Assembly: GCA_009746045.1 (NCBI GenBank)
Contig: RPFO01000156.1
Location: forward strand, 2,875,452 to 2,939,451
DNA: 64,000 bases
Direction: 5' to 3'
Source of the DNA: Mesostigma viride
Lineage: Eukaryota > Streptophyta > Mesostigmatophyceae > Mesostigmatales > Mesostigmataceae
The translations under genes were made by a program, and so were the position numbers. This document shows positions 19,035-44,873 of the stretch, one piece after another (the first letter of the stretch is position 1; each line of letters opens with the position of its first letter). The notes under the pieces are model-generated. The model searched no databases. It was not told the DNA's origin and worked only from the letters and a program-made list of their open reading frames with translations.

Positions 19035-19732
19035 AGTTAACGCCAAGCGCATTGGCGTGTTCCTGATTCGGCATATCTCTGCGATTCCAGCGGCACCGGA
19101 ACGAGTTCATTCCGACAAGTATCAAGAAAGTTATGGCGTTCCGACTTCCCGGTCGCGCGCGAGCGCGAGCCGGCTGTTCTTCTAAGTCGGACGTGAATAT
19201 TTGCCGACGACATATGGGGTCGACAGTAATTCCTGGGCTGACAGGAATTAGGTGCTGAACCTACGACGGTATTGGATTAATACGTCGTACGCAGGAAATA
19301 GGAACCTTAACCTGTGGTCTGTTGGTACCGCAGGTTTAGTCCTGGACTTTCTAGGTGCAGATGCAATAGTCACTGTGGACTGTGCTCTGTGGTCACTGTA
19401 CCTGTATGGCAGACCTACTGTATAGGAACTGGGCGCTGTACAGGTAGTGAATACTGTACCGGGAGTGTTATTACTGAGCACGCCTTCTAGGCTGCTCAGG
19501 ACTAGCAAGCACAGTGCACAAGTATATAAAGAATAGGCCAGTGCCAATTGGGCATCTCTTGCGAGCCCGCCTCACGTGTGTTGCCTTGACTTGGCAAACT
19601 CGTGTACAAGCCTCAAGTGTGTGAGCGCTGTAACATTATCCAATTTTAACAAAGCTCCGTTTCCAACCATATTCACACATTGCTGCATTGCAACCATATC
19701 CTTATACATTGCGTTTTATAAAAACGTTAACT
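19035..19732 (+). repeat. Copia 1 5' LTR
   Basis: A 698-bp LTR with ends AGTTAAC and GTTAACT instead of TG/CA. It contains a TATATAAAG box at about 19522, so transcription probably starts shortly after. It is almost the same as 33797-34506, apart from small insertions and substitutions. Confidence 0.92.
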
Positions 19733-19825
19733 CAAATTACAAGCAGTCTCGACGGAACGGCCAGGAGGGTCGTTGCTGTTTGCTGCGTGCAGCGTTGACG
19801 ACGCGAGAAGCTCGTCAGATGTCGA

Positions 19826-24062: not shown

Positions 24063-24096
24063 GCCAGCTGGCACCGTTATAACGGTGCCAGCTGGC
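24063..24096. repeat. Perfect 34-bp palindrome
   Basis: GCCAGCTGGCACCGTTA followed by its exact reverse complement. It lies about 230 bp beyond the transposase stop, inside the right side of the piggyBac element. It could be a transposase-binding or cruciform site. Confidence 0.95.
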
Positions 24097-25440: not shown

Positions 25441-25471
25441 GGCAGCCTTGTGTGGAATCGCCTGGCCATAC

Positions 25472-25985: not shown

Positions 25986-26347
25986 TGGCATCGCCTTCCA
26001 AGATACGCCAGGTCCCGCTTGAATTTTTGCCAGCGACCTCTGGGATTGTTGGCAGCGCAATGCCGAGAACTGACGATGGCGGATGACTATGTTGGATTTT
26101 AGTGGCTGGATGCATGAAAAATGTCGGGAGTTTCAACATAATGATAGGGGTTAACGATATAATTTATGTTATGCAGGAGATTCCTGTCGACAGTGGGCAT
26201 TGGAAAAAAAAAGGATGATGCCAAGAAAGAGGACCTTTTGTTTGGGCGGAGCTAACCACCCGTGCCTCAAAAATTGCGGCAAGCAGGTGCATGGTTTCTG
26301 CACCGGAATGTTTCAAGAGCCGGATGCGGAAGAGGGAACGCGGGATG
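25986..26347. other. Unassigned sequence before the foldback element
   Basis: No gene seen. The last five bases (26343-26347, GGATG) are the left target duplication of the foldback element. Confidence 0.5.
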
Positions 26348-27694
26348 AGTTATATACAACGATTCCTGCCGGAATCGACACTAAGCGCTTAGTATCGATT
26401 CCGTCAGGAATCGTTGTATATAACTAAAACTTTTGCTTGCGCCGGCAAGGCTAAGGCCGATACTAGTCGGGTCATCGAATTGGCTATTCGATTATCGAAG
26501 TTGCCTATTATTCGACCATCGAACTTTCCTATTCGATTATCGAATTTTCCTTATTCGATTGTCGAAATTTCCTATTCGACGGGGGGTCAGAGGCCAGCGG
26601 CCTATCATACTCGGTGCCCAGCGAGCCACCGAACTAGGCCTAGTCGATTATAGCGAGACATCGCGTGGAACTTAGCCGATTTCGGGGACTTAGCCGATTT
26701 TCGGAGCGACGTCGAACAACACAGATGATTAGCCGGTTGAGCACATCATATCAGTCGAATAGCTAGCGCTGGTACTCCGCCTAGTAAGCGGAGAGCACTT
26801 GCCTATTTCGATTGACATATTAGGCCGAACGATTAGCGTCCGCAACGTTATTCGCATTACTAGGCGAAAAATCCACCCCCGGAACGATCCTAGCGGGATT
26901 CGAACCCGGGATGCCGGCGTGTCGCAACAGTCTTAGTTATATTATACAACGATTCCTGACGGAATCGATACTAAGCGCTTAGTATCGAATCCGCAAGGAA
27001 TCGTTGTATATAACTAAAACTTTTGCTGTCTTAGTTATATACAACGATTCCTGACGGAATCGATACTAAGCGCTTAGTGTCGATCCCGTAAGGAATCGAT
27101 GTATATAACTAAGACTGTTGCGACACGCCGGCATCCCGGGTTCGAATCCCGCTAGGATCGTTCCGGGGGTGGATTTTTCGCCTAGTAATGCGAATAACGT
27201 TGCGGACGCTAATCGTTCGGCCTAATATGTCAATCGAAATAGGCAAGTGCTCTCCGCTTACTAGGCGGAGTACCAGCGCTAGCTATTCGACTGATATGAT
27301 GTGCTCAACCGGCTAATCATCTGTGTTGTTCGACGTCGCTCCGAAAATCGGCTAAGTCCCCGAAATCGGCTAAGTTCCACGCGATGTCTCGCTATAATCG
27401 ACTAGGCCTAGTTCGGTGGCTCGCTGGGCACCGAGTATGATAGGCCGCTGGCCTCTGACCCCCCGTCGAATAGGAAATTTCGACAATCGAATAAGGAAAA
27501 TTCGATAATCGAATAGGAAAGTTCGATGGTCGAATAGGCAACTTCGATAATCGAATAGCCAATTCGATGACCCGACTAGTATCGGCCTTAGCCTTGCCGG
27601 CGCAAGCAAAAGTTTTAGTTATATACAACGATTCCTGCCGGAATCGACACTAAGCGCTTAGTATCGATTCCGTCAGGAATCGTTGTATATAACT
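26348..27694. mobile_element. Foldback DNA element, 1347 bp, almost wholly palindromic
   Basis: The target duplication GGATG lies at 26343-26347 and 27695-27699. The outer ends are AGTTATATACAACGATTCC and its inverse. The left arm (26348 to about 26940) and right arm (about 27110-27694) are near-perfect inverted copies. Four hairpins of about 80 bp occur: one at each end (26348-26427, 27615-27694) and two in the centre (about 26937-27022 and 27033-27113). Each arm holds a tRNA-like T-arm with a perfect B box, GGTTCGAATCC (inverted in the left arm). No transposase is present, so it must move with outside help. Confidence 0.88.
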
Positions 27695-27699
27695 GGATG

Positions 27700-28240
27700 G
27701 ACTTGCCTGGAGTGTGGTGGGCCAGGGCGCCGTTCAGAACCAAACGATGATACCATGGCGGTAGATAACAAGCCCAGCGGCCCGGTCCTGCCAACCGACA
27801 ATCAAAGTTCTACCTTATACTATGGCCATAATGTGTGAAGCTAGCGTTTTCACGCTTGTTGCTTTCTGACGACAATACTGTGTGAAGTCATTATGTGTCC
27901 TGACATGACTTATTGCCCATGATGACTTAGAACTGTGGGAGAATCTCTCATGCATTATATGGACCATGCCACATAGAGCCGTAATCACGTCCATGTTCGT
28001 TTCACGGTTGGACAAGTTTGAGATTGAGAAAATTAATGTCCCCTACATTAGAATCAATGTTAGCCACACATAAGGAGACCAAATCAACTTATTTTCTTGA
28101 GTCGGCATCAAAAGTGTCCTAAATTTCGCAATTTGTCCTAATCCAGTGCAACACCTCTTCTTGTTCAGTAGCTTATATTGCTTTAATTACTGCTTGGCCA
28201 CTTGGCTGGCTGTAGCAGATCTGAACAGGGGCCATAATGA
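27700..28240. other. Unassigned sequence before copia 1 Gag
   Basis: It contains a 38-bp relative (27840-27877, inverted) of the repeat at 55708 and 56137. The right half of a 30-bp inverted repeat pair is at 28120-28149. Copia 1 internal sequence probably resumes near 28150. Confidence 0.4.
28120..28149 (-). repeat. Right half of the 30-bp inverted repeat pair
   Basis: Reverse complement of 20781-20811 with about three differences. See that entry. Confidence 0.5.
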
Positions 28241-29345
28241 GTGAGGGCACTATTGACCAACGAGGGCGCGGTATCGGCTTTGAGCGGCGCGGCGCTGGGA
28301 TGGATGGACGCGATGGACGCGATGGACGCGATGGACGCGATGGACGCGATGGACGCAGTGAAGGACAGGCGCTGGGAGACCAGGCTGCGCTGGCAGATGA
28401 TCAGAGCCAAGGATCTCGATCAGGGCGGTCAGAACGCGCCAGCTGCAGATCAAGCAGCACCTAGGCGGCCGACCGTGGCTGAAGGGTACGCGGTGCTAAG
28501 CCAGTTTCAGTCCATGCATCAAGGACAATTGGCAGCCCCGGGACGCCGAGAGGATGTTAGAGGACATGAACTTGTACACGGACATCTACACCGGTAACAA
28601 GCTTCGCATCCTGGCCTCTAGTGCCTACATAAGGCAGTCGGCGAGGCGGCTGTTCAAGTTTGTCCGGGAGCGACACACAGCTGGGGACACCTGGACTGCG
28701 TTTATGACGCGACTCAGGGTGTTCCTGAGTGACAAGAGGACCATAGATGGGTCCCACCTGAAGCAAGAATACCTGGACTACAAGCCCATCAAGGGGCAGC
28801 TAGTGGTCCACGCCTTTGAAGACTTCGTCAAGCTGAGGGAGGACGCCATGGCCAAGGGATTCTTCGTTGCAGATCGGATGGCCATGGGCGACTTTCTCAA
28901 GTCGCTGCAGCTGGATCCGGTCACCATGGATAATGTGACCATCCACATGCGACAGGTCCATGGCTGGGCAGCCATGACGGACCAGTTGTATGAGTGTTTC
29001 AGCGGCAAGTACGTAGGTGGTAAGCGCCCTCGTCAAGGGGACGAGGAGGCCAGCTGAACCTGCAGGTTAAGTCCATGAGGGGATCGGGCCACGGGGGCCC
29101 AGCGTCCTCGAGAGGGCCTGAGACCTCTTCAAGGGGTCGAGGAAGGTCCAGGAGGGGGCGTGACAGAAGGGCTGGACGGGGGACCCCCGAAGTCGGGACA
29201 TCCACAGTCCCAGTTTGACTTCAAGAGGGTGGGTGGTCCTCCCAAGGCTGGGCCCAGCAGTGGGACCTCACGGGACATCAGTCAGGTGGAATGTTATTTC
29301 TGCCAGGGAAGGGTCACTTCAGGAATGAGTGTCCCTCGTACCTGA
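28241..29345 (+). pseudogene. Copia 1 Gag with zinc knuckle, frameshifted
   Basis: The first frame (28241 to about 28550) contains six copies of the 9-bp unit ATGGACGCG (28300-28358), giving Met-Asp-Ala repeats. The next frame (28554-29057) is a capsid-like all-helical stretch (LYTDIYTGNKLRILASSAYI, LFKFVRERHTAGDTW, GWAAMTDQLYECFSGKY). Around 29290-29340 lies a CCHC zinc knuckle (CYFCQG, then HFRNEC) in which a single missing A in a GGGAAGGG run breaks the frame. Gag would package element RNA in cytoplasmic particles. Confidence 0.7.
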
Positions 29346-29568
29346 GGCAGGAAGGTCAGAGCAAGCCAGCTCAGGGTGGCAGCAAGGACAAGGCTGGTCC
29401 ATCCCAGGATAAGGGCAAGGGCAAGGCTGCTGATCATTGACTTGAGCCTGCACACATCCCTGAACCCTGGAGGGTGCCCCCAGGGGTGTGTAATGTAGCT
29501 GCTAGTGACAGCAGTGAGGGGCAGCCCCATGCTCTAGTGAAGAGCCTATTGGACACGATGGGGCAAGC

Positions 29569-32500
29569 TTGGTTACCACAGAGAGTATGCCAGCTGTAGC
29601 TGCAGTGGTTACTCGCCAACGTGCCCGCCATGGCGGTGCTGAGCCTGAGGTAGGACCTGGTGATGTGGACCCAGGTGGATCTCAGAAGCATTCTGACCGT
29701 GCAGGACTGGCACAGGATGGTCAGGATGAGGATAGGGCTGGAGACAGTCTGACAGGCACGACCCTGGTGCCTCCTGTACATAAGGGATCTGTACATACCT
29801 TGAGTGCTAATAATGACAATAAAAGATTTTCTCTCTTGTATGACATTGCCTCAAGGTTGCATACCATGTTTGGCCATGCAGCTCAGTCTTTGCAAGTTGC
29901 TAGACGGCTGGGAGGAAGTGAGTTGTACTCCATCTGCCAACAGGTTGCTCAAGCTTGCAAGTGCAGGCTAGTTGCTAGAAAGCCCAAGCAGTCTCATGCC
30001 AGGACTCCTATTTTGCAGCCAGGCCATGTGCAGGTAGATATTCAGAGAATCAGGGGTTTGAAGCTGCTGGTGGCAGTGGACAGATATACCAAGTACAAGA
30101 CCCTAGAGATCCTGCCTGACATGGAGAAGCCTACATTGATTGCTGCTCTGAAGTTGACAAGGAGCAGGTACCCTGGGTTGGAGTTGTTGCAGTGTGACAT
30201 TCAGTTTGAGTGCTGTGAGAACCTGCCAGAGTTTCCAGAGTTGCTGATTACACCCAGGGAGAGCCACGGCCAGCAAGGGGTGGTGGAGAGAGCCATCCAA
30301 GAGATCAAGACTGTGCTGCTGGTGGAGAGGATTCCAAGGACGTCATCTGCCATTGTGACATCTGCATGGCTACGTTCTGTGGAGGATAGGCTGAACCTCA
30401 GGACTCCCATGTTCTTTGGTGACATTGCCATCAATCCTCTTATGCTGCATACCAGGATGCTGCCAGCTGATGCTGAGCAGGCATGGAAGGAGAAGCTAGA
30501 GGCCAAGTTCCTCAAGCTGAGGCAGAAAGACAAGGGCTGGAGTGTCCTAGAACCTAACGTTGGACAACAGGTTGTTGTGTGGAAGGAACCAAGCTTTCCA
30601 GGGAAACGTGGCAGCTGGCATGATGGGGTGGTGACCCGAGTAGAAGCCGCTGGCCATAAGTGCTGGGTGGCCATTGATGGCTCCCAAGCAGTGCACCGTC
30701 TGTCCTGGTCAAAGATCCGTCCCCGGGGAGGTAATCAAGGAGACCTCTTCCAGGTGCCCGTTGGTGTACAAGGCGGGGGTGACGTGGAGCTTCCTGATCA
30801 GGGTGCTACAGCTGTATCGAGCCCTCAGGGTGACCCTGGCCCGGCCCCTGGGGTACCTTCACATACGGTGGTTGGGCAAGCAGGCGGACAGGCTGCACCT
30901 CCGGAACGGCCCGACACCAGGCCTAGGGGTGTGCGTCTATCAGATATTGTACAGGCTTTGCAAAGAGCCAAGAAGGAGCCTAAGGTGTCCAAGCTTGTCC
31001 AGTTGGATGAACCTGAGGTAGCTGCCATGGAGATAGATACCAATGCACAGGTTTCTGTCATGGGACCTCAGCATACAGGAGAACTGCTGGTCGGAGAACC
31101 AAGTTGCCCCTGGGTGTCTGATTTCAGTGGTAGGACGCATCTAAGGGTGTTGGGAGAGGTTACTGCCCCTGTCATGGGTGTGGATGTGACCTTCCTTGTC
31201 CTAGAGGACTATGATGGCCCTGTGATTTTGGGTCAGAATTTTCTGGGCAATCCTGGGATTTCTATCAGAGCTACAGCTCTGAGAAGAGATGGCTGGGGGA
31301 TGATTCCCCTAGAAAATTTCAGGACAACATTTCCAGTCAGGTGCAGGGCCAAGCCGGTCAAGGGTGTAAAATGGGATGAAGGGGAGGTGCCCCCAGCGGC
31401 CAGTTTGGTGATTCCAGCTGTGTTGCACCCCAGCAGTATTGGCATAACTCACAGGAGCCTTGCTGCACACTCTCCTTTGACATATGACCAGCTGGTCCAA
31501 GAGATGAGCTCGCCTACTTTGTTTGAGGCTTGGAAGCTCGCCTTCTCCAAGGCATTGGAGGAGTGGTTGCAGTTTGAGTGTGCTGCACCAACAGACAGAC
31601 GTCCCCCAGCATCAAGGAAGCTTGCTTTGAGATTTGTGCTGAAGAGGAAGGTTGTGGATGAGGTATCAGTGCCCCATGTCAGGCCTGTCCTGAATGAGTA
31701 TCACGGCACGGGGAGTCTGCCAGGAGAGGAGCTGTACACGCCAGGGATGCTACACGACACATGGAGAATTTTGCTATGTCTCTACGTGGGGTTGCTGAAC
31801 AGGGGAGCAGCTATGTCATCAGTGCTGCTGGACTTCAAGAGGGCATTTTTAAAATCTGATCCAGAAGTGGCCAGGAGGGTGTGGAAGCAGGATGAGCCTT
31901 ACTGTGTTGAGGTGCCTGCCATCTGGAAGCTGGAGCTGCATCAACAATTCCTGGTTATTCTGAAGGGCCTGGAAGGACTCAGGTCGAGCCCAATCATCTG
32001 GAGACTCACGCTGCAGGAAGCTCTGATCAGTGAGTGTGGCTTGAGAGTGTCTTCAGTTGATCCCTGTTTGCTGCTGGCCCAATGGGAGGGTCTGCCAGTG
32101 TATGCTAGTTTGCATGGAGATGATCTGCATTTGCTAGCCCCCACGACCTGGCTGAAGAAGTTTATTCCTGTCATCAGTGGCAAGTTTTCACTGGGCAAGG
32201 AGCTGTGGCAGGAGCCCAACAAGCCTGTAGTGTTCTGTGGAATGCAGGCTACCCTGTTCAGGAGGGACGGGGAGTGGAGTATCAGGCTTCAGGCTGGAGG
32301 AGATTATAAACAGACCATTGTGAAGGCCTTGCCAGAGAAGATCACCCAGGCTGCAGGACCTGAGTTGAGAGGCATGTGGGCCTGGTTTGCCAGCATCTGT
32401 GGTCCGTCTTTGATGGTCCATAGCAGAATGCCTGATGAGGTGCTTGAGGATGAGAAGCCTCGAGTCATAGCCCGGTTGGTGGAGAGTACCCCTGATCTGA

Positions 32501-32736
32501 TTTTGTCTGGGATTGACTTTGCCCAGCCTATCACCTTGGAGATCTTTGTTGACAGTTCCATGGATGCTCGCCAGGTTACCAAGGTCAGGGGGAGATCTGC
32601 TGCTCTGTTTGCTTTTTATCAGAGCAGGGCAAGTTTGTTCAGCTGGTACAGCAGACTGCAGAAGAGGGTCTGTATCAGTTCAGATGTGGCAGAATGCAGG
32701 GCCATATGCGAGGGGATCCAGTCCAGCTGTACATAA
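29569..32736 (+). CDS. Copia 1 Pol: integrase, protease-like, RT, RNase H start
   Basis: One long frame of 1055 codons. An HHCC-type zinc region comes first (H98, H103, C130, C132), then the integrase core with D157, D210 and E240 (VQVDI, LQCD, GVVERAIQE). Then comes a retropepsin-like segment, MEIDTNAQVSVM (D490) with GPVILGQNFL about 60 residues later. Then a copia-type RT follows with LDFKRAFLKS (D755) and LHGDDLHLL (D851, D852), and the start of RNase H (EIFVDSSMDARQVTKV, CISSDVAECRA). The usual copia order puts protease before integrase, and the usual RT motif is YVDD. The frame stops early at 32736; the RNase H end continues in another frame. Confidence 0.85.
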   Translation: MVTTESMPAVAAVVTRQRARHGGAEPEVGPGDVDPGGSQKHSDRAGLAQDGQDEDRAGDSLTGTTLVPPVHKGSVHTLSANNDNKRFSLLYDIASRLHTMFGHAAQSLQVARRLGGSELYSICQQVAQACKCRLVARKPKQSHARTPILQPGHVQVDIQRIRGLKLLVAVDRYTKYKTLEILPDMEKPTLIAALKLTRSRYPGLELLQCDIQFECCENLPEFPELLITPRESHGQQGVVERAIQEIKTVLLVERIPRTSSAIVTSAWLRSVEDRLNLRTPMFFGDIAINPLMLHTRMLPADAEQAWKEKLEAKFLKLRQKDKGWSVLEPNVGQQVVVWKEPSFPGKRGSWHDGVVTRVEAAGHKCWVAIDGSQAVHRLSWSKIRPRGGNQGDLFQVPVGVQGGGDVELPDQGATAVSSPQGDPGPAPGVPSHTVVGQAGGQAAPPERPDTRPRGVRLSDIVQALQRAKKEPKVSKLVQLDEPEVAAMEIDTNAQVSVMGPQHTGELLVGEPSCPWVSDFSGRTHLRVLGEVTAPVMGVDVTFLVLEDYDGPVILGQNFLGNPGISIRATALRRDGWGMIPLENFRTTFPVRCRAKPVKGVKWDEGEVPPAASLVIPAVLHPSSIGITHRSLAAHSPLTYDQLVQEMSSPTLFEAWKLAFSKALEEWLQFECAAPTDRRPPASRKLALRFVLKRKVVDEVSVPHVRPVLNEYHGTGSLPGEELYTPGMLHDTWRILLCLYVGLLNRGAAMSSVLLDFKRAFLKSDPEVARRVWKQDEPYCVEVPAIWKLELHQQFLVILKGLEGLRSSPIIWRLTLQEALISECGLRVSSVDPCLLLAQWEGLPVYASLHGDDLHLLAPTTWLKKFIPVISGKFSLGKELWQEPNKPVVFCGMQATLFRRDGEWSIRLQAGGDYKQTIVKALPEKITQAAGPELRGMWAWFASICGPSLMVHSRMPDEVLEDEKPRVIARLVESTPDLILSGIDFAQPITLEIFVDSSMDARQVTKVRGRSAALFAFYQSRASLFSWYSRLQKRVCISSDVAECRAICEGIQSSCT

Positions 32737-33029
32737 AGGAGTTAATGCTGGAGCTGGCTTCAGTTACCCCTTGGACCTTGCAGATGGAGACGTTGTTGCT
32801 AACAGACAGCATGGGTATGGTCCAGTTTGTTCACAAGCAGCTGGCCAGAAGCCGGGACCTGGATTATTTGTTGCTGAAGGAGTTGGCCAGTTTGGTTGAC
32901 TTGAAGCATATCCCTGGCGAGGAGAACCCTGCTGATGCATTGACAAAGCTGCCACACAAGGCCCCAGCCCAGTACAATGTACTGAGGAAGCTCATGAATG
33001 CTGACTGTCAAGTCGGTCTATCTGTCTAA
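32694..33029 (+). pseudogene. Copia 1 RNase H C-terminal part, frameshifted
   Basis: Continues the RNase H domain after a frame change near 32700: MLELASVTPW, LLTDSMGMVQFV, DYLLLKELASLVDLKHIPG and the classic end, NPADALTKLPH. Together with 32545-32736 it forms a copia-type RNase H. Confidence 0.8.
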
Positions 33030-33796
33030 AAGCTGAGAGCTGGGTGCTTAAGTCTCTGGATATCAGGCTGGGAGCTTGATTGTACATAATCCTGAGCACA
33101 CCTTGAGGGGTGAGACATGTCTCTGGTGTGGGAATGTCTGACATTGTCTCTGATGGAGAGATGTCTATCTGGGGTTTTCATCTCAGTCTGAGGTTTCCCC
33201 AGATCTGTGGTTTGTGGGCGGGGTTCGATTCCCTGGTGCCGTCTTAAGGCGGAGTTTCACGGACTGGCTGACCCATCCACCATGCTGGTGAGGTGGCGAC
33301 AGGTCCCCTGATTTTCCACGGTTGGAACGAGTATAGGAGCTTGTGTTTTGCATGTGCTTCGCGTAGATGTTGTGTCTGGTTCGATAAGGGGCAGCAGACC
33401 GGCGCCGACTCCCGTCTGGGGGTCAGCAATGTTTTCTGATGAGCTGTTGTGGGTGATCTGTGGGGTTTCGCCTAAGGTCCTGAAGGTTGTACATACTTCT
33501 CAAGTTCTTAGCTGAACACCTATGGGCTGCCACAGTTGGCCAACCTCTTGTACATGGGTAACACAACGAGCCTCCCGTGAAGGGATAGGGACTCATTGTA
33601 ATTTGTTTGTGCTCCTGAACCAGTATGGGTGCTATGTACATATAATAAGGAATCCAAGCTGACTGTCATGCCCAAGCTGACTGTCATGCCCAGCGGGTTG
33701 TGACTTGTAGTCGGGGAGGATGTCCAGTACCCATTGTGTGTGTTTGTATGTAGACTTGTGTGAGCTGCTACAGCTCAAGAAAAGAAAGCGGATTGG
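33030..33796. other. Copia 1 3' untranslated region
   Basis: About 770 bp between the end of Pol and the 3' LTR with no gene. It ends in the purine-rich tract AAGAAAAGAAAGCGGATTGG that would prime plus-strand synthesis. A GGGTTCGATTCCC phrase at about 33216 resembles a pol III B box but lacks a convincing tRNA context. A 16-bp direct repeat (AAGCTGACTGTCATGC) lies at 33655-33690. Confidence 0.6.
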
Positions 33797-34506
33797 AGTT
33801 AACGCCAAGCGCATTGGCGTGTTCCTGATTCGGCATATCTCTGCGATTCCAGCGGCACCGGAACGATCGAGTTCATTCCGACAAGTATCAAGAAAGTTAT
33901 GGCGTTCCGACTTCCCGGTCGCGCGCGAGCGCGAGCCGGCTGTTCTTCTAAGTCGGACGTGAATATTTGCCGACGACATATGGGGTCGACAGTAATTCCT
34001 GGGCTGACAGGAATTAGGTGCTGAACCTACGACGGTATTGGACTAATTAATACGTCGTACGCAGGAAATAGGAACCTTAACCTGTGGTCTGTTGGTACCG
34101 CAGGTTTAGTCCTGGACTTCTAGGTGCAGATGCAATATAGTCACTGTGGACTGTGCTCTGTGGTCACTGTGCCTCAGGTATGGCAGACCTACTGTATAGG
34201 AACTGGGCGCTGTACAGGTAGTGAATACTGTACCGGGAGTGTTATTACTGAGCAGGCCTTCTAGGCTGCTCAGGACTAGCAAGCACAGTGCACAAGTATA
34301 TAAAGAATAGGCCAGTGCCAATTGGGCATCTCTTGCGAGCCCGCCTCACGTGTGTTGCCTTGACTTGGCAAACTCGTGTACAAGCCTCAAGTGTGTGAGC
34401 GCTGTAACATTATCCAATTTTAACAAAGCTCCGTTTCCAACCATATTCACACATTGCTGCATTGCAACCATATCCTTATACATTGCGTTTGTAAAAACAA
34501 TTAACT
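33797..34506 (+). repeat. Copia 1 3' LTR
   Basis: A 710-bp LTR, AGTTAAC to ATTAACT, homologous along its length to 19035-19732 and longer by small insertions (for example near 33867). It is followed directly by the GAGGA target duplication. Confidence 0.92.
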
Positions 34507-34511
34507 GAGGA

Positions 34512-35207
34512 GGAGGGTGGATTCAGTCAGGGGGATGGGGCGCCAGACGTCAATGGCACTGCGCTGAAGGATGGAAAAGACGGCGGCAAGCTGAAGGCGC
34601 TGTCGCGTCCAGCCGGACATGCAGGTCAGGTGCACGAGGCTGGAACTGGCCGTCAGACTGGCTGCGGAAGCATTTATGGCGTTGGAGGCGCTGGCACAGG
34701 TCGAAAAGGGAGGCATATGTCCCATAAAACAAAAGCTCCAGGATCCGGATAGGTGCCGTAGCTGGTACATATGTCGAAAAAGCCGGGTCTGTCAGTGACG
34801 TCGAAGATTGAAAATAACTCGTCAACGTCAAAGTCGTACTCAGACCAGCTAGGTTCGGTTGGGCGGCTGCGTTTGGGCTCGGGCGATCGAGGCTGAAGGC
34901 GAGGCAGGAAGCCCGGGAGGGTGCTGGGCGACCACCAGTGCGCGACTAGTGTCACCGCTGCCTGCCGGGCCTGAGGGCGAAGCTGCAGCCGAAGCTGCAG
35001 ACGTATTTTCATCGAGCGCAGCCGCCAGGCTGCGTTGCGTCGATGGGCGTTTGCTCATCGTATATTGCGTAATAGCGTCGGAAAATTATATCAGCAATTG
35101 CGTCGTAGAAAGACGCGTCGATTGTGATATTCACGGCTGAATTCGGTGCTGAAATGTGAAAGTTATGAGCTCCGCCGTCAGCCATGGCTACCTCGTGGCT
35201 CTTGGCG
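34512..35207 (-). pseudogene. LINE C 5' UTR and ORF1 N-terminus
   Basis: On the minus strand, 35207-35059 is 5' UTR (GAGGTAGCCATGGCTGACGG type). The ORF1 start is at 35058 (MSKRPSTQRSLAAAL). The frame changes downstream (SEYDFDVDELFSIFDVTDRP lies in another frame), so it is decayed. It continues at 19029 beyond copia 1. Confidence 0.75.
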
Positions 35208-35218
35208 AGGAAATGCAT

Positions 35219-37129
35219 GCGGTGTTCTAACTTAGCTGGGACCACTAGGTCGGCCAGCAACTCAGTGCATGCTGTGTATTCTGATCTCAGTGCATGCTGT
35301 GTATAGTTCATGGTCGGTTTACCCATCTTTCTAGTAATGTCCGGCTATAATGGGGCCATGCCAGCTAGGTCAGGATATGCCGCCCCGGCTGGCCAAGCCG
35401 CTGGGGGCCGGCCAGACCGAGGTCGGTGTCTACCTGACGTTGGTGCGAGCAAGGTATCCTTTGAATGCTATCCTACGCTGCCTTATCTCGTCCGAAATGC
35501 GAGGAACACATACCGGCTTATACAAAGACTCTAAATAAAGACCTATGTGTGGAAAACCCTCCGTACGTTCTGGACCTGTCGAAGCATCCTGGTACACGTG
35601 CCAGTATCACTGGTACCGTGCCGTCCATCCGGCCGTGGCCAGCGTGTCCGTGAGCGTCCATGCCTCGGCGCCATAGGTGAGCACCGTACGTGAGGGCCAC
35701 TGGACCTTAAAGAGCACTCGCTAGCGCCGTCCTCGCCCATGTCCTACGAGGGCCAATAGGGGTTGAGCGAACGGAGCCTGGCCCATGCAGGCCAGCTAGG
35801 CCGATGCGGGTGTCCACATCACGTCGGCGGTACACGTTGGGCCGGAGCATCTTCCCCAGCATGCATGCAGTTTGATCGAAGCGGGACTCATGGAACGGGA
35901 AGTTACTCCGTCCCATGCATCTAGTACCATGCAGCCGAGGCTTCGGGGAGCAACTGGTAGCCCCAATCACCATCGCCTCAGTTTCGACATGCACTATTAA
36001 ATCTCCAGCCCCACCACCCGCGCCTCCAGACCTAAAGGCAGTCCAGCCAGGTCTGAATGTGCTCGGGGCGGCCGATGAGGGTGGTATCATCTGCATAAAT
36101 CAGGTCGGACAGGCGGTAACCAGGGCCACCAACCCCGTGTTCACGCTCGGATGTCCAAGCCAGGTTCGAACCCCAGTCCGGAGTGGTGACCTGAGCAGTA
36201 AAGCGCGCACGTGCCTGGCGCATGACGTGATCCACGACAATAATGAACAGATATGGGGACAGGACACAACCTTGCCACACCCCGTGGAGAAGGGGGAATG
36301 GTGGGGTGGTGCCTTGATCCGCAGTCCGCACTACTGCCTGTGAGCCCTCATACAGCTGGCGAATGGCGGCAATGAATGCTCAGGTACTGCACGCGATCCA
36401 GAGCTAGGATGGCCCAAAGAGCCTCCAAGAGGACCGTGTCTCAAGCCTTGATATAGTCAACAAAAATGAAGACCAGCGGAAAACCATCAGGGCAAATGCG
36501 ACGCACCTCGATCCTCCATCGATCAGCCGGCGCGCGACAATTACAGCCATGGTGACAGAGTTACGGCCACGACAGAAACCCATCTGAGACTTACCCATGC
36601 AGGTGTGGGTCCAGGGCGGCGCGGAGCCTGTGCAGCATCATGCCGTGCGCATGAAGAACTTCAGCGCGGCGCTTTGGAGGCAGACACCCCGATAGTAGTT
36701 ATACCGGGGTCGGCATGGCAAAGCCCTTCTTGCATGTACAGCATGACTTGGATGGCCGTCTGCCAGTGACTCAGCATGCAGGGGCGGAGGCTCATCAGAG
36801 AGCAGATCAGAGTTGCAGAACGCCATCAGACTAGCTCTTGCACCGCCAGGTCAGGGGTCTTCAGCAGCTCGGCCGAAAGGTGGTCGGCACCGGGCCGACC
36901 GCCGTGTCGTACCTCAAGCGAGCAAGGGCGCCGTCCAATAATCCTTCAAAACGTGAAGGGGTGGATGACGTCGTTAGTGGCGAGGCAGCCCTCCTGCAAG
37001 GCGGGGACTTGGTACGATCCGCGGCCGAGGAGGGTGGCGCAGGCGGCAGGGGGGGGGCCGGCAACACCGAGACGGGCGGCCGTCTCGGGGTGAAGCGGTG
37101 TGTGGGAGGAGGGGGGGGGGGGGGGGGGC
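35219..37129 (-). pseudogene. LINE A ORF2: reverse transcriptase and C-terminal part
   Basis: Minus-strand remains of a non-LTR RT. Motifs in order are QMGFCRGRNSVTMAVIVARR (near 36590), GVWQGCVLSPYLFIIVVDHV (near 36290), YRLSDLIYADDTTLIGRPE (near 36095), and then the C-terminal ISDEIRQRR-like stretch and LLADLVVPAKLEHR, ending at the LINE C insertion. Frames change several times. The upstream end is cut by copia 2. Confidence 0.82.
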
Positions 37130-37134
37130 GCGGG

Positions 37135-37655
37135 AGTTATTCTAGGACTTCAGGCCTAGACTATCAGTACACGTGGCGTTGTCCCCGTCTCCCAAGTGGG
37201 ATACGGACATGGACGGTGGTGTAGTACACTGGACATATCTCTACTAGGGTTTAGATCCGCACGTGCCATATTGGGCACGTGGGTGCTAGATATTAGCACT
37301 GAGATATGTAGGGCACACGCACGTGGGTATTCACGTGGTAGGGTTTATGAGCTGTGATGCAGACCACAAGGTGGTTGCAGTGCTAGTCCTGTACGGAGGT
37401 CCTAGGTGAGGTCCAGGACCATCCACGTAGTGCTGTTAGGCAGTCGGTGCCTGTGGGCATCGTATCAGTCCTAGCTGGAGTAGATCTAGCTGGACGGAGC
37501 CAGCATCTCATTGGTTAGCACTAGTGCAGGATAGCTAGGTTACCCTAACCTACGTGCCCATGCAATCCAGCTTGGCAAGCTTGCATGGGTTGATATTATG
37601 CCAGCCATTGCATAATCCAACACACGTTCGCATCCATTGCACGAGTGCCATAACT
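37135..37655 (+). repeat. Copia 2 5' LTR
   Basis: A 521-bp LTR with 6-bp inverted ends AGTTAT/ATAACT. The matching copy is at 44348-44868. TTTATAAAAAC follows just inside the element. Confidence 0.95.
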
Positions 37656-37686
37656 TGCATTTATAAAAACTCTCTCATTTTTAAAG

Positions 37687-39017
37687 ATGTCGAACGTTTC
37701 CAACACCGATTACTCTTCGGAGTCAAGCCTGTCCCCATCGTCCGAAGATTTGGACTACCGGGCGGCAGTGCGGGGCCGGCAGGGTCAGGCCGATCACGCT
37801 GGCAGCGATGCCGGCAGTGGTCGCTCGTCTTCGGACGAGGACCAGCGGTTCCTGGATCAGTTGGCGGCGCGGCCGCCGCTATACAATGTATGGCGTCCCA
37901 ACGCACCACCGGCGGAAGGGCAGCCCACGGCCCCGAGCTGGTCACGGGGCCGGGGAGGGTGGTGCCGGTATTGGGGGACATCCCGTCAGATGGCTACGAC
38001 GAGGACGAGGACCTCGTGGATCTCGAGTTGCCGGAGGACAAGGAGAAACGCGAGGAGCTGCTCCGCCGCGAGGCAGAGCGCATCCGGCAGGAGGCCCAGC
38101 TCCGCAGAGAGCTGGAGCAACAGCGCGAGCTGGAGGCTCAGCGCGAGGCTCAGCTGCGGGCAGAGACTGAGATGGACAGGACAGCCCGGGTGCTCGCGGA
38201 GCGGCAGCAGGAGCGGGATCGCGTGGCCAGGGCAGGTCTGCGCGCGGGGCCGACAGGTGCGCGAGAGGCGCCCCCATACGTTCTCCGCAAGAAGAACGAG
38301 CTTTACACCTTTGCGCACAGGCGCACAGCGCGCTCCTTTAGGCGCATGGCTGGAGATGTGCTGCAGGAGACCGACTCGTCGGTGGAGATGCAGCCAGGAG
38401 CGCGGGGAGAGGAGCTGGTTTTGATGGACCCGGCCATGGTGGAGGCAGAGCGTCTGGCCAAGATAGAGTACGCCAGGCATTGCCAGCGGAAGGCCAAGAG
38501 GGCAATGGTGCGGTCCATGGCGGAGAACAGTTTGGCTAGGGAGCGCGCAGCCAGGGAGGCGCAGCATCGGGAGATGAAGCGACTTCGTGCGAAGGCGCAC
38601 GACGCCGCGGAGAAGACCCGGCGTCACCAGGCGCGGCTGGACGCAGCCTGAAGAGGTCGGAGGCGACACTGGCAACGATGGTGGGCCCGGCGAGGCGGGA
38701 GCAGGAGGCCGGCTGGCGAGGAAGAGCCGGCGTAATGCACGTGCCCTAGACAGGCGCATGCGCAAGGAGGAGCGGGCTCTGCGCAGGTATCAGGAGGCGG
38801 CCAGGACCTGGGCTCTGCAGGGAGAATTCGGAGACGCAATCCGGTTTGAGCGTGGTCTGGCGCCACATGAGCCGCTGCCTGAGGACGCTGTATTGGACTT
38901 CATGCGTACCCCACAGCCAGCAAGGGCCCAGCGAGGAACGGCCTTGTTAAACGCGCGTGAGCGTGTTCGCGCTGGCGCAGACACACCCCACCCCCCACCC
39001 CCCACACCCACACACAC
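37687..39017 (+). pseudogene. Copia 2 ORF0: acidic then coiled-coil, frameshifted
   Basis: It starts at ATG 37687 (MSNVSNTDYSSESSLSPSSE). Near 37950 the frame changes to GDIPSDGYDEDEDLVDLELP, followed by a long Arg/Glu/Gln coiled coil (EELLRREAERIRQEAQLRRE and on) to a stop at 38651. A further frame (38657 to about 38980) continues with basic helical sequence (LARKSRRNARALDRRMRK). No named domain. It takes the same place as the 308-aa ORF of copia 1, ahead of Gag. Confidence 0.55.
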
Positions 39018-40255
39018 ATGCAGACCGACACGGACCTGGAGCTGGACCGCATCGCTGCACTACTCCACCAGGAGCTGGACGCAGCGGAGGCCAACCCGAC
39101 CAAGCGGGCGCGGGCAGCAGAGGCAGTAGAGCAACTGCTGAGGGCCGCCAAGCGGGTCCGCCAAGGAAAGTGGCAGGAGGGGTGTGGACCATCGTCTACG
39201 CCCCAGCGGTCGCATCCAGAGGAGGATGGTGACGAGGGGAAGGACGGGGGAGCACCAGGGGGAGGGGCACCAGCAAGCACCGGGGGTATGGCGGGCGGCA
39301 GCAACGCTGGAGCGACAACCCAGCAGCAGCAGCAGCCACAGCATCAGCAACAGCAGCAGCAGCAGCAGCAGCAGCGGCAGCATCAGCAACAGCAACCGCA
39401 GCAGCAGCAGCAGCAGCAGCAACCTCAACCACAAGCGACTGTCGCTGTACCACAGCGACCCAGGTTTGATGCATCCCGTAGGGAAGATAGGATTACCTTC
39501 CCAGGTCTAGCTGAGGGATTTGTGCAGGAGGATGCACTTGAGTTTCTTTTCAAGATAGAACATTCCTGGTCCCATGATAACATCCGTGATTGGTTTCCTG
39601 CTCTCAGGGTGTCTAACACGATCCACCAATCTGCACCTAGCATAAAACAAATGGTTCAGATGTATGAGAGGAGGGCAGCACACCTGGGGCTGAGGAGGTG
39701 CAAATCTTCACAGAATTCATAGCAGACCTAAAAGGGCTGTTGACCAAGGGGGAACACCTGCAGGCTCTCAAGGGGTTCAACTGGTTGGCCTCGTACAAAG
39801 TCAACAAGTCTGACTACGTACGTGACAACAAACAGTATGTCCTGTACATAGACAGGGACGAGGAGTTGAAGAAACTCAACTCTAAGTACCTGATCCATCA
39901 GTGGCTCACCAAAGCTGAGCTGGACAAGAACACCAATGCAGTTCTGCTGGCTGGCCTTAAAGACAAGTGGGATGATTTTAGGGGGGCCATGTTGTTCATT
40001 CAGCAGAGCCTAGAACCCTTCTCAACTGTCAAGGAACCCAAGGTTAACAAGGTCCAAGGGGGGGTGGTCAGGACGGTGCAGGTCCTAGCAGGAAGAAGCT
40101 CATCAAGGAGGTGGTAGCTCAGGTCAAGGCGGTGTTCAAGGGTCCCCAGCAAGGTAAGAAGGCAGGGGGGTCATCCAAGCAGCAGGGGAAATCAGACAAG
40201 GGGGGAAAGGGGAACCAGGCAGTAAGGCAGGGCCCTCCAGGGGCCTAGTCAGAAA
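39018..40255 (+). pseudogene. Copia 2 Gag with polyglutamine and zinc knuckles
   Basis: 39018-39722 gives a helical leader, then a CAG/CAA tract (39320-39425) encoding long Gln runs, then a capsid-like start (RITFPGLAEGFVQEDALEFL). After a frame change the helical capsid part continues at 39698-40117 (EFIADLKGLLTKGEHLQALK, YLIHQWLTKAELDKNTNAVL). A knuckle, CTRCSCKGHERDDC (CX2CX4HX4C), and a second Cys/His group lie at about 40284-40410 in yet another frame. Confidence 0.7.
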
Positions 40256-40265
40256 GGTAAGCCTC

Positions 40266-41635
40266 ATGACTCCACCCTGTACTGCACCAGGTGCTCATGC
40301 AAGGGGCATGAGAGGGATGATTGCTGGAAGGGCAAACCCGAACTTGGATCTGATGTGGATGTGTGCCCAGGTTGCTGGGAGCCCCGCCACCCGTTACCTG
40401 CAGGGGGACGCTGCAACAAGCCCAGGAAGGGAGCCTCGACGGGGCGCCCCAACAAACAAGCCAGCACTCAGGACGACTGTAAGTCTCCTGTACCCTGGTT
40501 TCTCAATGGCCGTGTACCTTATTTGCTCTGTGTTGCCTGACAGTGAGGAAGTGGATTGGGACCTGGCTTATGACATGACGTTAGCACAGGTGGCCCAAGA
40601 TCCCACTATAGCCTCCTTAGATGCAGCAGCAGATAAGGTTATATCCTATGCCAGGTTAGCCCAACAGCTACACAAGGCAATGGGGCATGAGGCAGTGGCA
40701 GAAAGGCTGGCCAATAAAATTGATGGCCGTGACCTGGAACAGATGTGCAGGCATGTCAGGAAGCACTGTGAAGCGTGCCAACTGCATGCACCTAAACCCA
40801 AGAGATGGCATGTGGCCACCCCACCACTGGCTAGAGGAAAGCTAGTAGGGGATGTGATACACCTGGTGAAGGACACGGTGTATTACTTGGTCCTAAAAGA
40901 TGCCTGGTCTAGGTTTGTGGTGATAGAACCCTTGCCAGGCATGGCCAATGAACAACTGCACAGAGCCCTGCTGATTGCACTAGCACGGTATCATCCTCAG
41001 GAAAAATTAATGCTGGATCAGCAGTTCACGTGGATACAAGATTATCCTGATCTGCCCAAGATAGACATTGCTGGGGCTCAAGATCATGAACGCCAGGGGA
41101 TGATTGAACGTACCATGCGTGCTATCAGGGACCTCATAAAGAAAAATGAGTCCAGGACAGCAGAGTCTGGGAGCTATGCTGATAGGACAGCGTGGGCAGC
41201 TGAGGTGTGCAGAACTCTGAACACCAAGCCCCTCATGTCTTCTCCTTTTGGTGAAATCACATCAATTGGCCTGCAATCAGGTAGCTACTCTCAGGAGGTA
41301 CTAGACCACTACAACACGCAAAGGCAACACTTGGCCAAGTTGCTGGCAAAAAAGGATAAGAGTAATGCCAGGCCTGTGTTTGAAGTGGGGGATCAGGTAC
41401 TCTACTATAGGGAGGGGAAGGGAACAAAGCCCACTCTGGTAGATGGCATGGTCCAGCTGAAATCATCAGGTTGTCAGAAACAGGTGACACGGTGACTATT
41501 CAGCATCACAGAGAGCGAATGGTTGGCAAGCATAGACTGAAGCTTTATTACCCTCCTTTGGCAGACGTGTCAGGGGTAGAATTCTTGGACATGGATTCAG
41601 AGCCTCAGTCTGGTGGGTTGGTCTCACCCAGTGAA
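40266..41635 (+). pseudogene. Copia 2 integrase
   Basis: The zinc region has QLHKAMGH and HCEACQ (HHCC). The catalytic core has GDVIHLVKD, LMLDQQF and GMIERTMRAIRDL, supplying Asp, Asp and Glu. The C-terminal SH3-like part (FEVGDQVLYYREGKG) continues after a one-base frame change near 41455 as TVTIQHHRERMVGKHRLKL. The protein would insert element cDNA into chromosomes. Confidence 0.82.
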
Positions 41636-42243
41636 TGGCCAGGGACATAGCTGATGCAAGCAACACAACCATAGACGCTCCTGTGTTCCTCAGTGGTGCA
41701 GCCCCACCACAGCCCAATGGTCCAACTGGGCAGGAGGAACGTGCACTGGATGAGCAGCAGGTCGCTCCTCCCTCATCTCAGGAACAGCCACACGAAGCAG
41801 CAGATCCTGTTGTCCCCAGGAATAAATTTGCTGAGGCTCTAAAAGCTCTACATAGAGCACACACTGCCAAGGCACAAATGGCAGCAGGTGCAGCACAAGT
41901 CAATGCTGTGGGTGAATCTAACCAGGATCCCAGTATTCTGGCAGTAGACACACAGGCACAGGTGAGCATCATCAGTGCACAAGCTGTATCTGGCCTAAGT
42001 CTGCAACGCTCGCCCTGGGCTAGAGTGTCAGATTTTTCAGGCAAAACAAAAATGGCAGTCAAAGGCCAAGTGCTAATTCCCATTCTGGGTGTGCCCACTC
42101 CCTTCCAGGTAGTAGAGGGCTACAAGGGGAATGCACTGCTGGGGGAACCATTTGTCTCATACCCTGGAGTAGTCATCTCAGCTGGGAGGTTGAGTGTGAC
42201 TGGGGTGGGGCAGGTCACCCTGGACCATTTAAAATTCCTTTAA
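41635..42243 (+). CDS. Copia 2 protease-like domain, placed after integrase
   Basis: An open frame of 202 codons. After a Pro/Gln-rich linker comes LAVDTQAQVSIIS (Asp105), a retropepsin-type motif in which the usual Gly of DTG is Gln. The second half has GYKGNALLGEPFVSYPG, matching the LLG-strand that follows the active site in retropepsins. Copia 1 has the same layout (DTNAQ). The protease would process Gag-Pol if active. Whether a DTQ centre is active is uncertain. Confidence 0.6.
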   Translation: MARDIADASNTTIDAPVFLSGAAPPQPNGPTGQEERALDEQQVAPPSSQEQPHEAADPVVPRNKFAEALKALHRAHTAKAQMAAGAAQVNAVGESNQDPSILAVDTQAQVSIISAQAVSGLSLQRSPWARVSDFSGKTKMAVKGQVLIPILGVPTPFQVVEGYKGNALLGEPFVSYPGVVISAGRLSVTGVGQVTLDHLKFL

Positions 42244-42389
42244 CACAGATCAGTGATGGCCTGGAAGCAGCCATCAATGCTGTCAACATAAAATACCTCC
42301 CAGGTCAGGAACCCTGTGTTGATTCCCTCATTCATTCTCAGAAGCTACACCCCTCTGCGTTTGGGCTTGGTAGATGGGACATAGCGTCC

Positions 42390-43397
42390 ATGTCTCCCTT
42401 GTCCTATGATGATGTGGTCAAAGACTGTCAAACGCAGATTGGTTTTCTGAAATGGATGGAAGCCTTTAACAGGGCTAGAGAGGAATGGGTTTGTCCTGAT
42501 CCACGTAGCAAGTCCCAGGTACCACCTGTAACACCGATTGAGGCACTGCCACAAGGGGCCAGAAAGCTCAGACTGAAGTTTGTCTGCAAGCATAAACCCC
42601 AGGCAGATGGGACACCTCCCATTTTTCATGCCAGACCTTGTGTCACGGAGTTCAGGGGCTCCACTGAGCTAACAGAGGCTGAACTGTATACCCCTGGTAT
42701 TCAGCAGACGTCTCTTAAGGTCCTGTTGGCCACTTTCCTTCACCATCTGAATGCTGGTAAGGACTACGTGTGTAAAGCCACTGACATTAAACGAGCCTTC
42801 CTTAAAGGCAACCCTGACATAGCCCAAAAGGTGTGGAGGGGTCAAGTCTATGTGGTAAACACTCCCAAAGTCTGGTCTGGGGACATCAAGGAACCTCATC
42901 TAAGGCCTAACTTGGGGGTAGAAGGGCTTCAGTCAGCACCTAAAATTTTTAGGCTGTCTGCCCAAGAGGTCTTCCTGAAGCTGGGGGCCCAGTATGATGA
43001 TATTGACCCTTGTTTCTTCACCATCCCTCATCCTGCTGGTATGATGATGTTTGTGTGGCATGGGGATGATCAGCTCATTACTGGTCCCAGGGCAGCTGTG
43101 GAGGATTTCATTGCTCAAGTGTCTGCTAGCTTTGAATTAGGCAAGCAGCTGGAGCTGGGGAAAGATCCTGTCAAGTTCTGTGGCATCATTCTGAACCTGT
43201 TTAAGGAGCAGAAGGAGTGGGTGTGTTCTCTCAAAGCATCCCCTGAGTATGTCATGTCTTGCAAAGATGTTCTTCCCTCTGACATCACTCCTGATCTCTG
43301 TCCCACTATTAGGGGTAAGCTAGGTTGGCTGTGTGCCACTTGTGCTCCTCATCTGGCGTGGTCAGCAGAGTGGATGATGATGTCCTCATGGAGGTAG
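42390..43397 (+). pseudogene. Copia 2 reverse transcriptase
   Basis: Copia-type (RVT_2) RT: LRLKFVCKHKPQADGTPP, KATDIKRAFLKGNPD (Asp132), EGLQSAPKIF in place of the usual YGLKQAPR-W, VWHGDDQLITGP (Asp226, Asp227) in place of YVDD, and KFCGIILNL. The frame runs on to 43397 and then changes to that of RNase H. Confidence 0.85.
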
Positions 43398-43972
43398 GGT
43401 CTAGGGCTATTAAACAGGTGTTGCATGATGGCCCTCCCCTTATTCTTCATGCCTTGGATCTGTTCCAACCCATCCACATCACATGCATGATGGACAGTTC
43501 CATGGAGTCACGGGTAGTCACTAAGGTACAAGCCAGAGAGGCAGGTCTCTTTATGTTGTCTAACCCCACTGGCAAGCAATCTTTGGTTTCCTGGTTCAGC
43601 AGACTCCACAAGCGCAAGGCAGTCAGCAGCAATGTAGCTGAATGCCGTGCTGTGGTATCTGCTGTGTTGCATGCCAGGTACTTGAACCATCTGCTGGTGT
43701 GGTTGCAGCATCAGGCTGGTAGTTATGCTGGTGTCAAATCCCATCTGCTGACTGACAGTCAATCCCTTCTCTCTTTCCTGGACAACCCCTTGGCTGTGCA
43801 CACCGATTTGGACTGGATTGTCCTCAAGCAGGAGTGTACCTATCTGGAGTCCAAGACTCACATCCGAGACCCTGACAATGCAGCAGATGCACTCACAAAA
43901 GTGCCACAGGCTGCAGGGCCTCAGTACAGAGTCCTATACACGCTGATGAACCCATATAATGGCAGAGGGTGA
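43325..43972 (+). CDS. Copia 2 RNase H and Pol C-terminus
   Basis: CMMDSSMESRVVTKVQARE, SLVSWFSRLHKRKAVSSNVA, ECRAVVSAV, LLTDSQSLLSFLDNP and HIRDPDNAADALTKVP give the Asp, Glu, Asp residues and the ADALTK ending of copia RNase H. It ends at a TGA at 43970-43972, about 375 bp before the 3' LTR. Confidence 0.85.
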   Translation: MAVCHLCSSSGVVSRVDDDVLMEVGSRAIKQVLHDGPPLILHALDLFQPIHITCMMDSSMESRVVTKVQAREAGLFMLSNPTGKQSLVSWFSRLHKRKAVSSNVAECRAVVSAVLHARYLNHLLVWLQHQAGSYAGVKSHLLTDSQSLLSFLDNPLAVHTDLDWIVLKQECTYLESKTHIRDPDNAADALTKVPQAAGPQYRVLYTLMNPYNGRG

Positions 43973-44347
43973 AGTGCCTCAGCCTAGGGCTATTAGCACC
44001 AGATAGGAGGGTGGTCATGGGGTGGCAGGGTCTGAAGTGTCCCACCCGTAAGACTCTCTTTGCGTCATTAAAGCTTGAGGTCAGAAGGGTCCTCCTTTAT
44101 TGATGGCTTGTTCTTTGTCAATAAAACGTGTGGTCATATTTTTCTGACAATGGTTTTCCTAACACAGGCACCCAACCAGTGGGGATGTTGTATCCAACAC
44201 GGAGGAGCTATGGGCGCTTTTATAAATGCATCTCTTTCAGTGTCCTGGTTGTCCCTGTGGGGAACCTTGCTTATCAGTAGTGGTTGGCATATGAGTGGGT
44301 TGTGGGAAGAGTCTTCCCCTCACTCCCCAAAGAAAAGTAATAATGGG

Positions 44348-44868
44348 AGTTATTCTAGGGCTTCAGGCCTAGACTATCAGTACACGTGGCGTTGTCCCCG
44401 TCTCCCAAGTGGGATACGGACATGGACGGTGGTGTAGTACACTGGACATATCTCTACTAGGATTTAGATCCGCACGTGCCATATTGGGCACGTGGGTGCT
44501 AGATATTAGCACTGAGATATGTAGGGCACACGCACGTGGGTATTCACGTGGTAGGGTTTATGAGCTGTGATGCAGACCACAAGGTGGTTGCAGTGCTAGT
44601 CCTGTACGGAGGTCCTAGGTGAGGTCCAGGACCATCCACGTAGTGCTGTTAGGCAGTCGGTGCCTGTGGGCATCGTATCAGTCCTAGCTGGAGTAGATCT
44701 AGCTGGACGGAGCCAGCATCTCATTGGTTAGCACTAGTGCAGGATAGCTAGGTTACCCTAACCTACGTGCCCATGCAATCCAGCTTGGCAAGCTTGCATG
44801 GGTTGATATTATGCCAGCCATTGCATAATCCAACACACGTTCGCATCCATTGCACGAGTGCCATAACT
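44348..44868 (+). repeat. Copia 2 3' LTR
   Basis: A 521-bp copy of 37135-37655, differing at about two positions. It is followed by target duplication GCGGG. The 375 bp before it (43973-44347) contain no gene and end in the purine tract. Confidence 0.95.
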
Positions 44869-44873
44869 GCGGG

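Follow-up and report, generated by a model that had tools for sequence, protein, structure and literature searches.

A copia-related LTR retrotransposon lineage in Mesostigma viride with a retropepsin-like domain between integrase and reverse transcriptase

Two LTR retrotransposons in the window

The DNA analyzed here, a stretch of 64,000 nucleotides from the alga Mesostigma viride (contig RPFO01000156.1, positions 2,875,452 to 2,939,451 of the forward strand; assembly GCA_009746045.1) that we call the window, contains two copia-like long terminal repeat (LTR) retrotransposons, copia 1 and copia 2. In both, the Pol polyprotein reads integrase (INT), a retropepsin-like protease segment (PR), reverse transcriptase (RT) and RNase H (RH). 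A first-pass annotation made from the sequence alone had described this order in the two elements, and it is borne out in both of them, that is, in family 1 (F1, copia 1) and family 2 (F2, copia 2), as well as in a third family of the same genome (F3) and in one outside relative, the protein P0001.

One open frame of copia 1 (29518-32736, 1072 aa) encodes integrase, the retropepsin-like segment, RT and the start of RNase H. The segment carries MEIDTNAQVSVM, with an ATG at 31027 and the Asp codon at 31036, and then VILGQNFL; counted from 29569, the start used in the first-pass annotation, this Asp is residue 490, as given there. The parts of copia 2 lie in four frames (integrase 40158-41495, PR-like segment 41635-42243, RT 42024-43397 and RNase H 43319-43972), and its motif VDTQAQVSIIS has the Asp codon at 41947, again as first read. 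The window copy of copia 2 is split by frame changes, whereas L050, a copy of the same family, is one continuous frame. The two elements are homologous piece by piece: PR 39% over 101 columns (E 6e-19), RT 34% over 360 (E 2e-62) and integrase 29% over 270 (E 7e-25).

The LTR pair of copia 1 is 97.2% identical over 712 columns and that of copia 2 is 99.6% identical over 524 columns, with flanking 5-bp target duplications of GAGGA and GCGGG, respectively. Copia 1 is apparently a single insertion that was later interrupted by nested insertions. While the earlier motif positions were right, the element borders had been drawn too narrowly; from LTR to LTR, copia 1 spans 19035-34506 and copia 2 spans 37135-44868 (Table 1). 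The LTRs of both elements start with AGTTA and finish with TAACT; the usual LTR termini are TG and CA. Two further features were recorded within copia 1: a DDE_Tnp_1_7 transposase frame (21694-23829, E 4.2e-50), which we take to be of the piggyBac type, and a large palindrome (26348-27694) with 434-nt arms that are 100% complementary, 96.8% self-inverse as a whole and containing repeated 89-nt units.

Table 1. Positions of the parts of copia 1 and copia 2 in the window.
Feature	Position	Strand	Remarks
5' LTR, copia 1	19035..19732	+	Ends AGTTAAC...GTTAACT; GAGGA at 19030-19034; 97.2% vs 33797-34506
Gag of copia 1, C-terminal part, CCHC knuckle	28241..29440	+	Frames broken here, borders approximate; terminal UGA 29438-29440
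Integrase, copia 1	29833..30727	+	HHCC, D-D-E core, SH3-like C-terminal part; aligned with four relatives; weak Agenet match E 0.068; borders approximate
Linker, integrase to PR, copia 1	30728..30984	+	Counterpart in family 2: dN/dS 0.41
Retropepsin-like domain, copia 1	30985..31323	+	D-T-N-A-Q-V-S (Asp 31036), flap-like VSDFSGRT, VILGQNFL; both motifs in 30/30 copies; borders approximate
Reverse transcriptase, copia 1	31360..32412	+	LHGDD vs VHVDD in this genome's canonical copia; borders approximate
RNase H, copia 1	32541..33029	+	Frame change near 32735 in this copy; borders approximate
3' LTR, copia 1	33797..34506	+	GAGGA at 34507-34511
5' LTR, copia 2	37135..37655	+	Ends AGTTAT...ATAACT; GCGGG at 37130-37134
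Gag, copia 2	37687..40540	+	Two CCHC-like knuckles near 40283-40420 (by eye); frames broken here; continuous in the part of L050 read
Integrase, copia 2	40640..41560	+	rve E 1.5e-4; borders approximate
Retropepsin-like domain, copia 2	41914..42243	+	V-D-T-Q-A-Q-V-S (Asp 41947), ALLGEPFV; gag-asp_proteas E 0.011; 39% to copia 1; borders approximate
Reverse transcriptase, copia 2	42260..43370	+	WHGDD; RVT_2 E 1.4e-8, 35.1 bits vs 31.6 cut-off; borders approximate
RNase H, copia 2	43480..43972	+	Borders approximate
3' LTR, copia 2	44348..44868	+	GCGGG at 44869-44873

Order of the Pol domains

Three diverged families and an outside relative each encode INT-PR-RT-RH in one open frame. Uninterrupted frames with this order measure 1196 aa in F1, 1214 aa in P0001, 1344 aa in F3 (locus L039) and 1287 aa in L051 (an 82% relative, F2b); the F2 copy L050 has an open frame of at least 1930 aa that includes the Gag zinc knuckles (the stretch read starts inside Gag, and the search gave 2110 aa for the whole frame). 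None of F1, F2, F3 and P0001 follows the Ty1/copia order PR-INT-RT-RH, nor does any place integrase 3' of RNase H as Ty3/gypsy elements do, with integrase ahead of PR and RT in each frame read. The control L052 (1460 aa), a canonical copia element from this genome, does read PR-INT-RT-RH, with Pfam matches to Retrotran_gag_2 (118-219), Pol_BBD (344-420), gag_pre-integrs (445-508), rve (526-624), SH3_retrovirus (685-752) and RVT_2 (985-1226). Within the single protein of L051, the Pfam order is rve 241-302 (E 3.9e-5), Peptidase_A2_2 612-675 (0.051), gag-asp_proteas 610-681 (0.17) and RVT_2 813-1012 (9.9e-7), and in P0001 it is rve 214-265, gag-asp_proteas 557-628 (E 0.086) and RVT_2 751-923, all weak. 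The other traits are those of LTR retrotransposons, namely LTRs and target duplications (examined in copia 1 and copia 2), a CCHC Gag (zf-CCHC at E 1.4e-4 in L025 of F1 and 7e-10 in L039), RT, RNase H and integrase.

The genome searched comprises 439.9 Mb in 2243 contigs, and the copy counts are lower bounds because scoring covered the best candidates only. F1 has at least 43 scored matches, none of the 43 with a stop in the matched part and 31 with a frame of at least 1196 aa; in the 30 of these loci that were read, pol is 99.4-100% identical (25 distinct sequences) and both PR motifs are present throughout (30/30). At least 93 scored matches belong to F2, with stops in several, and at least 65 to F3 (query P0002), all 65 at 100% and stop-free, with a frame of at least 1344 aa in 46; the F3 locus read is L039. 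The lineage has spread recently, and to high copy number, in one genome. P0001 (1214 aa) is 65% to copia 1 and its best matches in this genome reach 63-64%, so it derives from another strain or organism. Protein-database searches found P0001 with the first query and P0002 with P0001 as the query, and a profile already including P0002 retrieved nothing further from the protein database. No relative was seen in the scans of viral contigs or in the one scan of prokaryote genome contigs, and NCBIfam and PHROGs gave no useful match.

The broken frames of both window copies and the transposase frame inside copia 1 might suggest that the order is an artefact of local rearrangement, nested insertion or misassembly. 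The unbroken frames speak against this, as do the recurrence of the order in three families, the near-identical F1 copies at 30 places (pol 99.4-100%) and the same order in P0001, which finds no closer match than 63-64% in this genome. Misassembly was considered and rejected on account of the many copies. We give an artefact of any of these kinds next to no credence, in line with the earlier contention that the layout is not a local rearrangement.

Search for a protease ahead of integrase

The first-pass annotation had found no protease between Gag and integrase. None was recognised there in either window element or in the intact F1, F2 and F3 frames, and no canonical protease was seen upstream of integrase in these intact relatives, of which L050 is stop-free from most of Gag through RNase H; this check covered Pol alone in P0001 and, in L050, a stretch that lacks the first part of the F2 Gag. 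In L050, the roughly 80 residues that separate the zinc knuckles from integrase contain no protease motif. The Pfam family Pol_BBD, which covers the protease region of copia elements, had no match at E up to 10 in P0001 (Pol only), L050, L051, L039 or L025 (the last two Gag plus Pol), and was matched at E 4.1e-15 in the control L052. A hidden protease ahead of integrase was also sought and rejected: a [DE]-[STC]-G scan of the three forward frames of 28200-29900 and 37650-40680 returned three chance-like matches, and the Pfam scans of intact frames returned none. The separate 5' frame of copia 1 (19799-20752) gave nothing in Pfam at E up to 0.01; the motif scan did not cover this frame.

Identity of the retropepsin-like segment

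Sequence profiles favour a retropepsin, though below their cut-offs. Searched alone, the L051 segment matched three Pfam families, all of them aspartyl proteases (E 0.0017, 0.0032 and 0.046), with gag-asp_proteas aligned over positions 11-89 of 92; the L050 segment matched two, both proteases (E 0.0085 and 0.28). The gag-asp_proteas matches of copia 2 (E 0.011) and P0001 (E 0.086) fall at the corresponding place. For comparison, a gypsy-type fragment elsewhere in the window matched gag-asp_proteas at E 2.8e-7. A two-part retropepsin pattern, written after the motif was known, occurs in 5/5 Pol proteins, which are related to one another, and in 0/20000 shuffles. A hydrophobic-hydrophobic-Gly strand is present 40-90 residues past the Asp in each (VILGQNFL, IILGQNFL, ALLGEPFV twice, and TLIGQPFL), and the motif, a flap-like stretch and this strand keep the expected order. 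In an hhalign comparison, the six best-scoring of 75 Pol windows were the motif-bearing ones. The segment is under constraint, unlike the linker before it, in one F2 comparison: between L050 and L051 the ratio of nonsynonymous to synonymous substitution rates (dN/dS) is 0.09 in the PR segment and 0.41 in the linker; it is 0.11 in integrase, also 0.11 in the spacer between PR and RT, and 0.05 in RT. In RNase H dS is saturated, and in integrase (1.4) and RT (2.1) it is high already.

Several results weigh against a retropepsin. In no family does the segment have a Pfam match above the cut-off; the best scores, both from the L051 segment, are 18.8 bits (cut-off 27) and 18.5 bits (cut-off 28.2). 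For the family 3 segment, Pfam returned nothing at E up to 10; no protease was among the Pfam matches of the complete frames of copia 1, L025 and L050, and the copia 1 segment ranks DUF6898 (0.16) above gag-asp_proteas (0.21, second motif only). An hmmsearch profile of eight DTGA proteases from the same genome stayed at shuffle level (best real score 3.1 bits vs 6.2 in 1000 shuffles), and 2 of its 4 reported matches fell outside the segment. The hhalign probability was 7.5 over 28 columns round the Asp, with 1 of 300 column permutations as high. PDB sequence searches gave no match, and AlphaFold2 on four-row alignments reached mean pLDDT (predicted local distance difference test) values of 39.6 and 46.0 in two runs, too low to speak for or against the fold. 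Finally, the PR-RT spacer is as constrained (0.11) as the segment; low dN/dS alone therefore marks no domain border.

The missing above-cut-off matches, the weak or negative tests with the own-genome profile and the blank Pfam result for family 3 would all fit an unrelated beta-rich domain with a chance likeness to retropepsin, in a lineage without a protease. Such a coincidence would have to account for an L051 segment whose three Pfam families are all aspartyl proteases, one of them aligned nearly end to end, and for a motif, flap-like stretch and strand that follow one another as expected; we regard it as improbable. Instead, we infer that the segment is a gypsy-type rather than a copia-type retropepsin, replacing the copia protease.

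Affinity of the reverse transcriptase and integrase

Judged by profiles and a tree, the RT is copia-type and sits on a long separate branch. An RT of the RVT_2 type is found in family 2, where the window frame of copia 2 (35.1 bits) is the sole one above the 31.6 cut-off; L050 (31.1), L051 (29.0) and P0001 (15.5 bits) remain below it, and Pfam gave no RVT_2 match for copia 1, P0002, L025 or L039. For families 1 and 3 we infer an RVT_2-type RT by homology. A profile of five lineage RTs gave an hhalign probability of 95.2 with one canonical copia RT and 0.2 with one gypsy RT. The RT tree that the first-pass annotation had recommended was built from 11 sequences and sets the five of the lineage apart from six canonical ones of this genome with full support, on a branch of about 2 substitutions per site; 3 of the 6 canonical rows are near-identical, at least 2 are ragged at their ends, and the tree has no outside references. 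Integrase shows a very weak likeness to gypsy in its C-terminal part (probability 1.6; as good in 2 of 150 permutations, vs 93 of 150 for a copia tail). Read by eye from the alignment, the D-D-E core of the L039 integrase has D as its third residue (QGKVDR) vs E in the other families (QGVVER, QGMIER).

Taken as a whole, the elements probably represent a copia-related LTR retrotransposon lineage whose Pol reads INT-PR-RT-RH, with a displaced gypsy-type retropepsin in place of a lost copia protease.

The active site

A further point against a working retropepsin is that the D-[ST]-G triad is absent: the glycine is replaced by N in F1 and P0001, by Q in F2 (both L050 and L051) and by K in F3, a change on which the first-pass annotation had not commented. 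Because this active-site glycine is replaced, the segment could have kept a retropepsin fold and be catalytically dead, serving as a dimerising or spacing module while a host protease cleaves the precursor or no cleavage takes place; it is in keeping with this that Pfam recognised no other protease in the polyproteins. However, five motif residues (Asp, Thr, Ala, Val and Ser) do not vary among the five sequences, which show 34-37% identity between families, whereas a dead domain would be expected to have lost the Asp in at least one family; in the one comparison made, the segment's dN/dS is no higher than that of integrase. The canonical copia L052 has D-S-A in an intact frame, and departures from D-T-G therefore occur. 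Ala also stands in the place of the glycine in active plant copia elements. A dead domain thus appears unlikely to us, and the retropepsin-like segment may well be catalytic.

Gag-Pol expression

In the F1 locus L025, a single UGA separates Gag (392 aa) from Pol (1196 aa), the two sharing a frame, and this UGA (29438-29440 in the window) is kept in all 30 loci read (L009-L038). A CCHC knuckle lies in the frame of the UGA in 19 of the 30 and was not found in that frame in the other 11; the frame directly 3' of the UGA is short in 8/30 (L009-L014, L024 and L036). The F1 UGA is a candidate for stop-codon readthrough. Gag-Pol of F2 forms one frame in L050. In F3 (one locus, L039:1186-1250), the Gag and Pol frames overlap with a -1 offset. 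The sequence ahead of the Gag stop, G AAA AAC, is no classical slippery heptamer, nor does one lie by that stop, and -1 frameshifting is putative.

Access to Pol would differ by family: past an in-frame UGA in F1, along a continuous Gag-Pol frame in F2 and through a -1 frame overlap in F3. Once Gag-Pol packs into particles the retropepsin would dimerise, and it would sever integrase on its one side from RT-RNase H on the other. We put forward tentatively, as a possibility somewhat short of even, the full account in which a copia-derived lineage lost its own protease and gained a gypsy-type retropepsin between integrase and RT that works without the D-T-G glycine, under three Gag-Pol modes (UGA readthrough, one frame and -1 frame shift).

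Other features of the window

Tandem arrays of 7 bp (about 25 and about 78 copies) are among the intervals 9667-9838, 10510-11056, 11879-13008 and 13542-13912; the same intervals include a 92-bp array of about 12 copies, with a unit resembling a gypsy RT fragment, and an inverted 4-copy array is nearby. The stretches 17675-18873 and 52420-53573 are related (84.6% identical), and their minus-strand frames are, by eye, possible first open reading frames of a non-LTR element. The frame 61968-63350 contains a stretch, ITVHDVREQLRSLGHDNVPDSIIEAFLADMR, that by eye resembles the ciliary protein HYLS1 and has no Pfam match. A DUF1118 protein was also matched (Pfam, E 4.8e-28), as would suit a green alga.

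Comparison with known systems

Domain order is a defining character for sorting LTR retroelements, and this lineage breaks that rule. If the protease works, Pol can house a retropepsin downstream of integrase, and the glycine of the retropepsin signature is replaceable; both the protease position and the glycine replacement would be testable in this alga, which is culturable and carries many copies. We found no description of an INT-PR-RT order among the titles and abstract openings searched, where most subscription journals and Repbase were outside the search, and Mesostigma joined with copia, retrotransposon, reverse transcriptase and integrase turned up only a choanoflagellate survey among the records seen. 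The paper on the Mesostigma viride NIES-296 assembly counts 60339 LTR retroelements without using the word copia in its main text (PMC6947507). A reference survey of plant elements takes GAG-PROT-INT-RT-RH as copia and GAG-PROT-RT-RH-INT as gypsy and discarded every element with an unexpected domain order as a likely misprediction (PMC6317226); such lineages could therefore have been missed.

The lineage resembles Ty1/copia (Pseudoviridae) in that the family 2 RT matches RVT_2, integrase comes before RT, RNase H comes last and the target duplications are 5 bp long, as is usual for copia. It differs in that 1) the protease-like domain follows integrase, where copia has its protease before; 2) its protease motifs are gypsy-like, with no Pol_BBD match; 3) its RT has HGDD, vs VHVDD in the canonical elements here, and forms a separate clade; and 4) its LTRs start with AG and end with CT. 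With Ty3/gypsy (Metaviridae), it shares the D-T-x-A and hydrophobic-hydrophobic-Gly-x-x-F/W-L motifs, a protease directly before RT, as in the gypsy-like frame of L041, and, very weakly, the C-terminal part of integrase; unlike Ty3/gypsy, its integrase opens Pol rather than closing it, and its RT is of copia type. In Gmr1-like elements, integrase has moved within a gypsy element. These gypsy elements with a copia-like pol order, named in a title cited in PMC2774666, offer a precedent for a shifted Pol domain, with the difference that here protease and integrase are exchanged, and in a copia-type element.

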